NCBI RefSeq assembly: GCF_900104675.1
Contig: NZ_LT629944.1
Span: forward strand, 186,001-250,000
From: Angelakisella massiliensis
GTDB taxonomy: Bacteria; Bacillota; Clostridia; Oscillospirales; Ruminococcaceae
Direction: 5' to 3'
Length of the DNA: 64,000 nt
Made by a program: the position numbers and the translations under genes. The notes beneath the pieces are model-generated. The model ran no database searches. It was given only the letters and a program-made list of their open reading frames with translations, and was not told where the DNA came from. Shown piece after piece: positions 1-27,868 of this stretch; the stretch's first letter is position 1, and every line of letters begins with the position of its first letter.

Positions 1-426
1 GCTAAACAGACGATCCAAAAGTATCGTCCCCAAAAATGTCACTCCTGCGACTTGAGGAAGTGTGAGACTCCCTATTGTTTTTCCAAATAATGACAGCAGA
101 GATACTATTGAGGAAGCATTGCTCAACCCATCAGTAATACTGCTTCCAAGATCTTTCTCTCCTCCTTCGCCACCTCCCCCACCTATTGAAAAGTGCGGAA
201 GCTCCGCCACCAGCATCGCATTCATCCACGCCGTTTGCATCCTGTCCAAACTATACAGATGATTAGCGCAGGCTTGCAGCAGCAGTTCCATGGTACCCAA
301 ATGGGCCAGCTCGGGAAGCGCGATTTCATCAATGGAGATTTCCATACTCTCCGGCACTTCCAGTCCCAGCGCCCCGCCCGTTTCCGCCAGTTCCATAGCG
401 GCCTGCTCCTGATTGTCTTTTTCCAT
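1..426 (-). CDS. Phage tail-region protein, N-terminal part (cut by window edge)
   Basis: The frame is open from an ATG at 426 to the left edge (142 codons, no stop), preceded by GGAGGGCAGGGGG. It follows the tail tube gene by 32 bases, the place where assembly-chaperone or tape-measure genes usually sit. Residues 1-80 are acidic and leucine-rich. A short Gly-rich linker (GGGGGEGG) follows, then a hydrophobic stretch from about residue 100 to the edge, which fits the start of a tape-measure or membrane-active tail protein better than a chaperone. The stretch encoding the hydrophobic part is clearly AT-richer than the first half, suggesting mosaic origin. Function is not recognised with certainty. 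Confidence 0.55.
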   Translation of the reverse strand, partial: MEKDNQEQAAMELAETGGALGLEVPESMEISIDEIALPELAHLGTMELLLQACANHLYSLDRMQTAWMNAMLVAELPHFSIGGGGGEGGEKDLGSSITDGLSNASSIVSLLSLFGKTIGSLTLPQVAGVTFLGTILLDRLFS

Positions 427-15565: not shown

Positions 15566-15577
15566 ATAGTTGGTTTT

Positions 15578-15737
15578 GTTTCAGGGCGGGGTGAAATTCC
15601 CCACCGGCGGTAATCAGCTTACGCTGCGAGACCGCGACCCCACAGGCCTTTTTGGTTTGAGGGCTGAGTCCGGTGAGATTCCGGTTCCGACGGTAAAGAC
15701 CGCTTTTGTGCGGTACCAAGTCCGGATGAAAGAAACG
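15578..15737 (+). ncRNA. FMN riboswitch (RFN element)
   Basis: All conserved blocks of the RFN aptamer are in order: GGGCGGGGTGAAATTCCCCA, CCGGCGGTAATC, GACCGCGACCCC, AGGGCTGAGTCCGGTGAGAT, CCGGTTCCGACGGTAAAG and GTCCGGATGAAAG. P1 can close by GTTTC at the 5' end and GAAAC at the 3' end. Binding of FMN should favour the terminator at 15825-15855 and lower ribU expression. Confidence 0.97.
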
Positions 15738-15824
15738 GCTGCCGGCGAAAGTTTTGTTTGTTTTCCCTGCCAGTTCCGCAAAACAGCAGGGAGTAGCAAT
15801 AAAATTTTCACAACGCGACCATTC

Positions 15825-16719: not shown

Positions 16720-16820
16720 TGCTTATCAAGAGTGGTGGAGGGAACAGACCCTGTGAAGCCCGGCAACCTGCCTTTGGGGTAAGGTGCCAAATTCTGCGGA
16801 GTATTCCGAGAGATGAGTTA
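16720..16820 (+). ncRNA. SAM-I riboswitch (S-box)
   Basis: Conserved S-box pieces in order: CTTATCAAGAGTGGTGGAGG, GACCCTGTGAAGCCCGGCAA, CCTGCC, AAGGTGCCAAATTCTGC and GAGAGATGAG. CTTATC pairs with GATGAG to close P1. SAM binding favours the terminator that follows, lowering metK expression. Confidence 0.97.
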
Positions 16821-24100: not shown

Positions 24101-26224
24101 TCAGATTTCCTGGATCACCGGCAGGATCATGGGTTTACGCTTGGTACGGGTATAAATATACTCCGACAGCTCATCCCGAATCTTACCCTTGATGGAACCC
24201 CAGTCCTTGAAGCCGGTCAGCTGGCAGCCTTCCAGCGCTCTGCGCACCACGGTCTTGGCGTCGGTCATCATGTCCTCCGCCTCCCGGACATAAACAAAGC
24301 CTCTGGAAACCAGGTCCGGCCCGGCCAGGATCTCTCCTGTAGCGCCGTCGATGGATACCACCGCCACGACCAAACCATCCTCCGAAAGGAGCTTGCGGTC
24401 CCGCAGAACGATACTGCCCACATCGCCCACGCCCAGTCCATCCACCAGCACACGGCCGGAGGGGACCATTCCGGTGATTTTCATATCCACACCATCGGTC
24501 TCCACCACCTTGCCGATGTCGCTGATGATGATGTTTTTCTCATCATATCCCATACTCCGGGCGACCTGAGCATTCTTTACCAGATGTTTGTATTCTCCAT
24601 GGACTGGCATAAAGAACCTGGGTCTGGTGAGGGCCAGCAGCGTTCTGGTCTCATCCTGGCAGGCATGACCGGAAACATGAACATCATACATCCGCTCATA
24701 GATAACCTCCGCGCCGGATTTCATCAGCTCATTGACCACCTTACCCACCAGCTTCTCATTGCCGGGGATGGGGGTAGCGGAAATGATGATATAATCATTG
24801 GGCCCGATGTGGACCTTGCGGTGATCGCCGGTGGACATCCGGGTAAGGGCGCTCATAGGCTCACCCTGGCTTCCGGTACTGATGATGACCAGCTGATCAT
24901 CGGTATAGTTTTTCATGGTCTCGATGTCTATGATGGTGCCTTCCTCAACGGTAAGGTAACCCAGCTCAGTGGCCTTCTGCACCACATTGACCATGCTGCG
25001 GCCGAATACCGCCACCTTCCGTCCGGTGCGCACCGCCGCGTCGATCACCTGCTGAATACGGTGAACATTGCTTGCGAAGGTGGCAATGATGATTCGCCGC
25101 TGACCGGCGTCATGGAACAGCTTTTCAAAGCTGTAGCCCACCGTCCGCTCACTGGGGGTGGAGCCCGGCTTTTCCGCGTTGGTGCTGTCTCCCAGCAGAG
25201 CCAGCACACCCTGATTGCCCAGTTCGCCAAACCGCGCCAGATCGATGACATCCCCTTCAATGGGAGTGTAATCGATTTTGAAGTCTCCCGTCTGGATCAC
25301 CACACCTGCGGGGGTACGGATTGCCAGAGCACAGGCGTCCGGAATGGAATGATTGACATGGATAAATTCCACCGACATGCATCCCGCCTGGATCACATCC
25401 CGGGGATGGACCACATTGAGCTTGGATTTATTGAGAAGTCCATGTTCTTTCAGCTTCCCTTCAATCAGCCCGATGGTCAGGGGGGTACCATATACCGGCA
25501 CATTCACTTCCTTGAGCAGATAAGCCAGGCCGCCGATGTGGTCCTCATGTCCATGGGTGATAAAGATGCCCCGCACCTTCTCCCGGTTGCGCACCAGGTA
25601 GGTGAAATCCGGGATCACCAGATCTACTCCCAGCAGATCATCATCGGGGAAAGCGATACCGCAGTCCACCACCACAATATCATTTTCACACTCATAAACA
25701 GTGATATTCTTGCCGATCTCACCCAAGCCGCCCAGGGAAATGATCTTCAGGGGTGTTTTCCGCTGAAGCCGGCTTTTGCCGCCCTTGCGTGACTGGCTGC
25801 TTCTTCTGCTCTGGGCGGCAGGAGAAAGCTCCTCACTCTGAGCCTTGGGGCTTTGTTTGCGGGGCTGCTGGCGGAGATTCTTTCCACCCTCCCCTTTTTC
25901 TCCCCGGGGTGTTTTGGAAGCGCTCTTCTGAGCGGACTGCTGAACCTGTTCCGTGGGAGCCTTTTTCTGCCGGGAGCGCTGCTGACGGGGTTTCTGCTCT
26001 CCCTGTGTCTTTTGCTCCGGCTGCTTTGAAGCAGGCTTACGGGTGCCTCTCTTCTGTCCCTGAGGCTTTTTCTGCTCCTCCCCACCGGTCATGGCGGAGG
26101 TGTCCACTTCTTCCTCAGGATGATTCTTCAGCTTCTCGGTAAAACCCTGGGGAAACCGAAGCAGCCGGTCCAAAGCAGGTGTTCTGGACACCGGCTTGTT
26201 CTGATTATTCTTTTTTTCTGTCAC
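24101..26224 (-). CDS. rnj: Ribonuclease J
   Basis: 707 residues, about 150 more than usual RNase J. Residues 1-156 are a low-complexity, highly basic and Gln/Ser-rich extension. The enzyme core starts at about 158 (LKIISLGGLGEIGKN) and shows the metallo-beta-lactamase motif HGHEDH at 224-229, NHSIPDACA, SGHACQDE and the beta-CASP region DSTNAEKPG. It degrades and matures mRNA as endo- and 5' exonuclease. Start is GTG at 26224 with GGAGG eight bases upstream. A 450-base leader with its own promoter precedes it. Confidence 0.96.
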   Translation of the reverse strand: MTEKKNNQNKPVSRTPALDRLLRFPQGFTEKLKNHPEEEVDTSAMTGGEEQKKPQGQKRGTRKPASKQPEQKTQGEQKPRQQRSRQKKAPTEQVQQSAQKSASKTPRGEKGEGGKNLRQQPRKQSPKAQSEELSPAAQSRRSSQSRKGGKSRLQRKTPLKIISLGGLGEIGKNITVYECENDIVVVDCGIAFPDDDLLGVDLVIPDFTYLVRNREKVRGIFITHGHEDHIGGLAYLLKEVNVPVYGTPLTIGLIEGKLKEHGLLNKSKLNVVHPRDVIQAGCMSVEFIHVNHSIPDACALAIRTPAGVVIQTGDFKIDYTPIEGDVIDLARFGELGNQGVLALLGDSTNAEKPGSTPSERTVGYSFEKLFHDAGQRRIIIATFASNVHRIQQVIDAAVRTGRKVAVFGRSMVNVVQKATELGYLTVEEGTIIDIETMKNYTDDQLVIISTGSQGEPMSALTRMSTGDHRKVHIGPNDYIIISATPIPGNEKLVGKVVNELMKSGAEVIYERMYDVHVSGHACQDETRTLLALTRPRFFMPVHGEYKHLVKNAQVARSMGYDEKNIIISDIGKVVETDGVDMKITGMVPSGRVLVDGLGVGDVGSIVLRDRKLLSEDGLVVAVVSIDGATGEILAGPDLVSRGFVYVREAEDMMTDAKTVVRRALEGCQLTGFKDWGSIKGKIRDELSEYIYTRTKRKPMILPVIQEI

Positions 26225-26360
26225 GTTCGTTCCTCCATTTAATGTTTGTCATTGCTTCTATTGCTCTCAAAGTGTTTTCAGGCTTTCCCCATACGAAAAG
26301 GGAGCGCCTACTGTATCGGTTACTTTTCCCTCAAACAGGAAAACGGTTTTTGGGCAAAAC

Positions 26361-26677
26361 AAAAAAACCATGGCCGGAGCATGGATATCTGCCTTATAAA
26401 AGCTTCTCTGCGACGGGGCCTTCCCGCCGCCACGGTGTGAAAGAGTGGGGTGTCTCATCGGCTTTTTACCGTACCGCCGATGGGATGGGATCCACTTTTT
26501 CTTTTTGCCCGCCTTCCGTCCACCGTTATGGGGAGGGTCGGCTGTTTGAAAGCAGCCCGTCCACAAAAGGCCGCTCTATCAAATGGCCCAGGCCCTTTGG
26601 CCCGCAGCCTAACAGTCCATTCATCAGCTTTTTGCCCTTCTATCCCTCCGGAATCTGGGAATTAAAGCCGGAAATCT
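26361..26677 (-). ncRNA. Candidate structured RNA / RNase J leader
   Basis: A transcript from the strong promoter at 26684-26713 would run leftward through several hairpins before rnj: GGCTG/CAGCC near 26530, CATCGGC/GCCGATG near 26460-26490, and GGCGGCGGG/CCGTCGC near 26420. It reaches the stem CCATG/CATGG at 26368-26384, directly followed by seven T on the minus strand (26361-26367). This could be an independent RNA of about 315 nucleotides or an attenuated leader of rnj. It does not show RNase P, tmRNA or SRP RNA signatures. The 3' boundary is inferred. Confidence 0.45.
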
Positions 26678-26683
26678 GTATTT

Positions 26684-26713
26684 ATTATAAGGTTTGTTTG
26701 CCGTAGTTGTCAA
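26684..26713 (-). promoter_or_regulatory. Promoter of the RNase J leader
   Basis: Minus strand TTGACA (26708-26713), 18-base spacer, TATAAT (26684-26689). Both hexamers are perfect consensus. It lies 20 bases beyond the stop of the upstream gene and 460 bases before rnj. Confidence 0.85.
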
Positions 26714-26732
26714 TAGCGTGAATCTTTTATTG

Positions 26733-27659
26733 TTAAAAACGACAATTTTCTCTTTGCTCTGTCATCCACATCAGCCCTGCCAGCAAACCATCCCGCACCC
26801 AGGGATGAAGCATCGCCAGGCTTCTGGCTGTCCGGTCCTCTCCGTCAGGACGATACCGCATCACCCCTGAACCTTCCGGCCACTGCCCGCTCTGGGCACA
26901 AAGCCCCTCAGGGAGCGCTACTTCTTCCCCCCGCGCCAACCGGGTTCGGCACAGATCCTCCACCAGCCGTTCCCATGGCAGCACCGTGCCATCCCTCAGG
27001 CGCAGGGATGCTTCCTCTCCTGTGGCAGAAAGGACCAATACGCATCCCCCTCTGGGGCGCACACCGGCAGCGCAGAGCACCGCGCTTCCCAGTTTTCGCA
27101 GCACAGAGGGTCCCCCTTCAATACGGCAGCAGCAGCCCATCAGCCGATCTCCCAGCAGATGGGAAAGCATCTCGCTGTATGCCGGAAAAGGATCTGCCTC
27201 CAGTCTGCGCCCTGTCCGCAGGGAAGGCTGACATTCCGTTTTTTCCCACAAACGCAGCAGTTCCAGGTTCAGTTGAGCCCGGCGGCGCCGTGTCAGCGGC
27301 AAACCTCCCGGCAGGGTTATTTGTGCTTCTATTCCTTCCTTCTGGCGAAAAAAGATCCCCAAAGCACATTCTCCCCTGCTCCAGCCATGATAAAAGGGGC
27401 CCGGCGCGGCGCTTCCCAGCCACAGGCAATCGCCTCCCGCCAAAGAAAGAGAGGACATAAAAAGCTCTGCCGCCGCTCTGCCTGCGGGGGTGCCGTCATA
27501 GCAAACAGCCACACGTTCCCTCCCCCGAAGCTGAGCCGCTGCCGCCCCCGCCAGCAAAGGGGTTATCCTCAGTCCCACAGCGCACCGGCCCTCACCGGAC
27601 ACCCCTGGCGGACATAAAATAGCAGCAGTGGTTCCTGTTTGCAGTACCTGCTGTTCCAT
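26733..27659 (-). CDS. Phosphohexomutase-like protein, degenerate
   Basis: 308 residues from ATG at 27659 (GGGAGG seven bases upstream; the longer frame to 27866 lacks one). The segment VGLRITPLLAGAAAAQLRGRERVAVCYDG..AGRAAAELFM looks like domain 1 of alpha-D-phosphohexomutases (phosphoglucosamine/phosphomannomutase). The serine-containing catalytic loop, which should follow as a TASHNP-type motif, is replaced by FFRQKEGIEAQITLPGG, and the metal-binding DGDGDR motif is not seen. It is therefore probably not an active mutase. Length is about two thirds of the family. Function unknown. Confidence 0.5.
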   Translation of the reverse strand: MEQQVLQTGTTAAILCPPGVSGEGRCAVGLRITPLLAGAAAAQLRGRERVAVCYDGTPAGRAAAELFMSSLSLAGGDCLWLGSAAPGPFYHGWSRGECALGIFFRQKEGIEAQITLPGGLPLTRRRRAQLNLELLRLWEKTECQPSLRTGRRLEADPFPAYSEMLSHLLGDRLMGCCCRIEGGPSVLRKLGSAVLCAAGVRPRGGCVLVLSATGEEASLRLRDGTVLPWERLVEDLCRTRLARGEEVALPEGLCAQSGQWPEGSGVMRYRPDGEDRTARSLAMLHPWVRDGLLAGLMWMTEQRENCRF

Positions 27660-27795
27660 GATTCTTCCTCCCTCTTTTTCATTTCTTTCCATGAAAAGTA
27701 TGGCCCTGGAAGAAGGATGCCAATCCATCACTGAGCAATATTTTTCGATCATCGGCACTTTTCTGTTTATTCTCCATTCCGGAGGCTTTTCCGCC

Positions 27796-27824
27796 TTGCC
27801 TTCCCATGCAGGATTGGATATAAT
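27796..27824 (+). promoter_or_regulatory. rnhA promoter
   Basis: TTGCCT (27796-27801), 17-base spacer, TATAAT (27819-27824), 45 bases before the rnhA ATG. Confidence 0.75.
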
Positions 27825-27868
27825 AGGAAAGGCAAAAACCGGTCTGTCCGGCGAGAAAGGAATCAATC

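Follow-up and report, generated by a model that had tools for sequence, protein, structure and literature searches.

Nucleases that act on mRNA have repeatedly been found to limit their own production. RNase E binds its own leader, and RNase III and PNPase of E. coli, as well as RNase Y of B. subtilis, control their own synthesis (PMC3997798, PMC10303841); the B. subtilis rny 5′ UTR, 164 nt in length, is attacked by both RNase Y and RNase J1 (PMC10303841). A leader can also be the source of a small RNA, as described for UpsM of the Rhodobacteraceae, a family-restricted sRNA arising from a 268-nt leader of the dcw genes that contains an internal terminator (PMC5089854). For RNase J, no description of self-control of its level was found in the open-access literature, including that on rnj in Clostridia. 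RNase J is the 5′-3′ exonuclease of most Gram-positive bacteria and a 5′-end-dependent nuclease. Here, we describe the region preceding rnj in a 64,000-nt stretch of Angelakisella massiliensis DNA, hereafter the window, and compare it with these systems.

The product of rnj carries the Pfam domains RNase_J_b_CASP, RNase_J_C, Lactamase_B and RMMBL, and matches NCBIfam TIGR00649 above cut-off. Its GTG start at 26224 is kept in relatives and is taken as correct because the ribosome-binding site and the VTEKKN... reading frame are conserved in the closest sister, G009 (L004/L085), and in other members of the genus. The first 158 residues (25751-26224) form a basic, low-complexity extension rich in K, R, Q and S, and a long N-terminal extension, judged by open-frame length, is also found in many RNases J of the family. 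The features of the locus are collected in Table 1.

Table 1. Features of the rnj locus; positions are those of the window, and transcript starts are predicted from promoters.
Feature	Position	Strand	Basis or remark
rnj, RNase J (707 aa, GTG start)	24101..26224	minus	Pfam and NCBIfam matches
Ribosome-binding site GGAGG and spacer	26225..26236	minus	12-nt run GGAGGAACGAAC identical in G009
rnj 5′ leader, about 452 nt, predicted start site to start codon	26225..26676	minus	no other promoter
U7 tract, about 316 nt from the predicted start; transcription may end prematurely here	26361..26367	minus	sequence; conserved
3′ arm GCCAUGGU of terminator-like stem	26367..26374	minus	inside 17-nt G009-identical run GCCATGGTTTTTTTGTT
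Inner hairpin GGCGGG/CCCGUC inside stem	26428-26423 / 26417-26412	minus	
5′ arm ACCGUGGC of terminator-like stem	26429..26436	minus	overlaps 13-nt G009-identical run CCGTGGCGGCGGG
A-rich segment GGGCAAAAAGAAAAAG, potential pairing partner of the U tract and the flank 3′ of it	26495..26510	minus	best pairing site
Short run GGGCCATTT, identical in G009	26581..26589	minus	beside (T)TTGATAGA
Short run ATGGACTGT, identical in G009	26612..26620	minus	
Position of the family 5′ element, here decayed to GATTTCCGG	26660..26676	minus	comparison with family
Sigma-70 promoter TTGACA-18-TATAAT of rnj	26684..26713	minus	12/12 consensus match

The initial annotation of this DNA had placed a perfect consensus promoter about 460 bases before rnj, and this holds, with 12 of 12 bases matching and 459 nt between the end of the -10 box and the GTG. 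It is the sole promoter-like site on either strand of 25500-27500, where shuffled sequences give 0.6, and the leader region is single-copy in the genome. The several strong hairpins also described there fared less well: the folding energy of the region is only mildly below that of shuffles (z -1.3 over 319 nt and -2.2 over 455 nt), and terminator-like sites in the scanned stretch occur at chance frequency (3 found, 3.3 expected). A leader peptide attenuator was considered and set aside, the window leader having no ORF with a ribosome-binding site and the 68-codon ORF of G009 being broken in the window.

That the region resembles no housekeeping RNA was confirmed with the Rfam covariance models, which assigned it nothing at gathering score and gave chance-level matches only at E up to 10; nor did the loci of 35 relatives yield any family at gathering score, including the RNase E 5′ UTR (RF00040), 6S RNA and riboswitches. 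Elsewhere in the window, FMN and SAM riboswitches lie on the plus strand at 15573-15741 and 16720-16819, respectively. The rnj leader itself could be a riboswitch-like attenuator that senses a metabolite or protein and belongs to a class absent from Rfam, given its own promoter, structured leader and terminator-like end. We consider this very improbable: neither the genus nor the family shows a conserved aptamer core, and the part that would bind a ligand, which should be the most conserved, is here the least.

DNA upstream of rnj was fetched via the protein from about 100 genera of the family, and the start codon and promoter were located in each. Start codons were picked by ribosome-binding-site score, and some of those in the family table are uncertain. 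TTGACA-16..18-TANNNT precedes rnj in 80 of 97 regions from these phylogenetically related samples, compared with 1.1 expected from shuffles. The same layout is found in 13/25 regions from other families of the order and, for TTGACA, in 3/29 from other orders, and it is absent from rnj of the Lachnospiraceae. On these counts, the long, independently promoted leader is a lineage trait of rnj. In Lachnospiraceae (L030, L035, L052, L058, L078, L083 and others), a highly conserved TGCACTTA..AATGG..ACATAAAACCATTGGAGGTGCA, too invariant for covariation to show, is located just before rnj, in which UGCACUU can pair with AGGUGCA over the Shine-Dalgarno sequence and AAUGG with CCAUU.

Within the family, it is the position of the leader that is conserved and not its sequence, which diverges rapidly between genera. 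Family leaders are somewhat more structured than the DNA 5′ of the promoter (mean z -1.72 vs -0.97, p 5e-4), and the enriched k-mers TACATA and CGGCAG had no shared context among them. In the window, the upstream gene (26733-27866) stops 20 nt short of that promoter, and a homologue is found ahead of rnj in the sister; it has no match in Pfam or NCBIfam. In L012, the corresponding gene is one that we take, from our own reading of its translation, to be murD-like. Such fast divergence, scanned leader lengths that range from 50 to 712 nt around a median of 306 nt, and a weak folding signal could all be accommodated by a passive long leader, in which the promoter simply sits just behind the upstream gene, the spacer drifts, and the conserved blocks are remnants or that gene's terminator. 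We rate this as unlikely, in that a long leader has been kept across about 100 genera although a shorter one would be neutral, the promoter and long leader stay with rnj even when another genus has a different gene upstream, and a stem with its U7 tract has been selectively kept in G009. With no second promoter nearby and with promoter and leader tracking rnj across the family, the assignment of the stretch as a leader of rnj is well supported.

Only G009 aligned over the leader in a direct DNA search of the genus and family. Between the two genomes the promoter is identical at 30/30 bases while its flanks are at 56-69%, and identity is 56% in the leader body, 79% in the block of hairpin, U7 and flank, and 95% at the ribosome-binding site. 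The 18 nt of the promoter spacer (26707-26690) are all identical, perhaps reflecting an extra DNA-level signal. The (T)TTGATAGA beside the GGGCCATTT run recurs in three other members of the genus. The longest identical runs in the leader body, GCCATGGTTTTTTTGTT (26374-26358, 17 nt) and CCGTGGCGGCGGG (26435-26423, 13 nt), hold the complementary arms of an 8-bp stem, ACCGUGGC/GCCAUGGU, which encloses an inner hairpin and ends at the U tract. The stem and seven T reported about 315 bases from the start are thus present, and the T run (26367-26361) ends about 316 nt downstream of where transcription is predicted to begin. The 8-bp stem, conserved in the sister, is better supported than the simple hairpin CCATG-7-CATGG before the same T run (26384-26368), which is weak at -3.6 kcal/mol. 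Because the promoter is kept at 30/30 and the stem arms persist in a leader that is only 56% identical, the comparison supports a conserved, putatively terminator-like element inside the leader.

In the window, the predicted pairing probability of ACCGUGGC/GCCAUGGU is 0.7-0.8 in the full leader and 0.09 in the nascent form, whereas the G009 stem is predicted already in nascent RNA (0.8-0.92). A further candidate pairing is GGGCAAAA/UUUUGCCC. Pairing of the A-rich segment with the U tract, a possible antiterminator, had a P of 0.08 in the window, and pairings at comparable places gave 0.06 in G009 and 0.017 in L089, each of modest significance; for L090 and L091 it was not significant (0.84 and 0.75). 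L089-L091, three other members of the genus, share a leader of a different type, with a conserved hairpin and U5 run shortly before the start codon; in L091 (G002) the distance from hairpin to rnj is about 130-180 nt greater than in the other two, which may reflect a small insertion. In the covariance check proposed with the initial annotation, compensatory changes between the window and G009, the one close sister (12), are not above shuffles (13.6). In the family as a whole, a hairpin preceded a T run in 36 cases compared with 30 in a mirrored control at -12 kcal/mol; shuffles were exceeded, but the excess over the mirrored control is so slight that a family-wide terminator enrichment is not claimed. 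The proposed attenuation is therefore plausible, with the conserved stem and U tract in the window and G009 and the similar hairpin with U5 in L089-L091 speaking for it. The combination of lost structure in relatives and a transcript start close to the gene, named at the outset as the contrary outcome, is not what was seen.

The main rival to control through the leader is a released RNA like UpsM, whereby most transcripts would end at U7 to give an abundant RNA of about 316 nt acting in trans, with rnj expressed by read-through only. UpsM provides a precedent (PMC5089854), and the strong promoter, the conserved stem adjoining U7 and the nascent-RNA folding of the G009 stem are all in line with it. 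Nevertheless, the window terminator is weak, the RNA body is poorly conserved even in G009 (56% identity) with no DNA-search match in the rest of the genus, and conservation does not fall off beyond U7. An independent small RNA gene, whose transcript would end ahead of rnj and show higher conservation than the spacer that follows, was the other option initially raised; the equal conservation on both sides of the U tract (56% each) and the ribosome-binding site that follows make it the less likely one, and the UpsM-like variant is likewise judged rather unlikely.

Alignment of transcript starts revealed a second feature, (A/U)UUUGUUCGGA, located at the predicted 5′ ends of many family rnj leaders. 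The element or a close variant is present in 59/97 family rnj, counting the genus variant UUUGUGCA, and in almost every one of these 59 carriers it starts 13-17 nt downstream of the -10 box. A strict pattern gave 35/97 family regions (expectation, 1.5; reverse strand, 1), 5/64 regions from other families of the order (expectation, 1.0) and 8/69 from other orders of the class (expectation, 0.5; reverse strand, 0). The corresponding shuffle-based Poisson tails of 3e-35, 4e-3 and 6e-8 are overstated, since related genomes are not independent. Carriers in other orders include rnj with leaders of 24-38 nt; named carriers, spread over several orders, are L248, L256, L257, L324, L331, L223, L224 and L236. 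The clean element is missing in the window and G009, and the rest of the genus has UUUGUGCAA or a close form at this position.

In a genome-wide pattern search of the family, 18/39 matches were at rnj, the others examined being at tRNA, SRP-RNA-like, uvrB and scattered genes, and a class-wide search gave no excess over reversed controls, with 3/24 matches at rnj. The element thus appears nearly rnj-specific, and a regulon was rejected, there being no set of other genes in either the family or class searches. An intramolecular partner within the leader was not detected (mean longest complement 5.02, 5.08 by chance). The conserved CCGAAC segment of 5S rRNA is believed invariant, and complementarity of UGUUCGG to it was judged a coincidence because the fourth base of the element varies. 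The uvrB match resembles a LexA box, whose second half-site is, however, missing from the copies at rnj. Alternatively, the element may be a DNA operator or promoter-escape signal, with rnj controlled at initiation. Its fixed distance from the -10 box and the fully identical promoter spacer in the window and G009 would suit such a role, which we nonetheless hold to be quite unlikely for a sequence of strictly single orientation, with no dyad and no regulon at other genes, and which would leave the long leaders unexplained. A tentative proposal is that (A/U)UUUGUUCGGA would serve in Clostridia as a dedicated tag within the first ~17-25 nt of rnj mRNA, read by RNase J or a partner as a direct 5′-end feedback switch predating the long leaders; the attenuator would have been added in the host family, and the window lineage would have lost or replaced the element.

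Taken together, the reading we favour, at roughly even confidence, takes the stretch as a 5′ untranslated leader that belongs to rnj, driven by its own strong housekeeping promoter and serving post-initiation control of the RNase J level, most likely as feedback on its own mRNA. Of this, sequence comparison shows the promoter, the long leader, the stem next to U7 kept in G009 and the conserved ribosome-binding site; the regulatory part is an inference. Control after initiation fits rnj because a nuclease gene here has a strong promoter with a long leader and the precedents are autoregulatory; by this analogy, autoregulation via the leader is probable. In this scheme, the cell would use the leader to adjust the amount of RNase J once transcription is under way. 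Surplus RNase J would lead to early termination within the leader or to attack on its 5′ region, and so to loss of the rnj message; a busy RNase J would leave the full message intact. In relatives, the 5′-terminal UUUGUUCGGA may mark the rnj mRNA for this feedback, an element that the window lineage would have lost or replaced. Counting against this reading are leaders too divergent between genera for one shared fold, a window stem formed in about 9% of the nascent ensemble and the missing 5′ element in the window. The layout of promoter and leader kept across about 100 genera, together with a 5′ element found almost only at rnj, offers a testable handle on self-limitation of RNase J.

Among the known systems, rnj shares its own promoter and long 5′ UTR with the autoregulatory nuclease leaders of the rne/pnp/rnc/rny type. 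The E. coli rne 5′ UTR (RF00040) is similar in that a main mRNA-decay nuclease has its own promoter and a long structured leader, with feedback being proposed for rnj; it differs in enzyme and bacteria and has no sequence or Rfam match to the rnj leader, for which RNase J binding is putative and structure is not conserved across genera. RNase Y of B. subtilis likewise is a Firmicute decay nuclease with a 5′ leader, although, in the part of its account available to us, control is exerted mostly by cleavages early in the coding region and no terminator-like element comparable to the stem-U7 of rnj is described (PMC10303841). Riboswitch and T-box attenuators present promoter, leader, terminator-like stem and gene in the same order, but the rnj leader is without their conserved aptamer core and without an Rfam match. 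UpsM, finally, resembles the rnj leader in being family-restricted and in having a terminator or terminator-like element inside the leader, and differs in that it precedes cell-division genes, is unrelated in sequence and has an RNA product that has been shown, whereas that of rnj is hypothetical.
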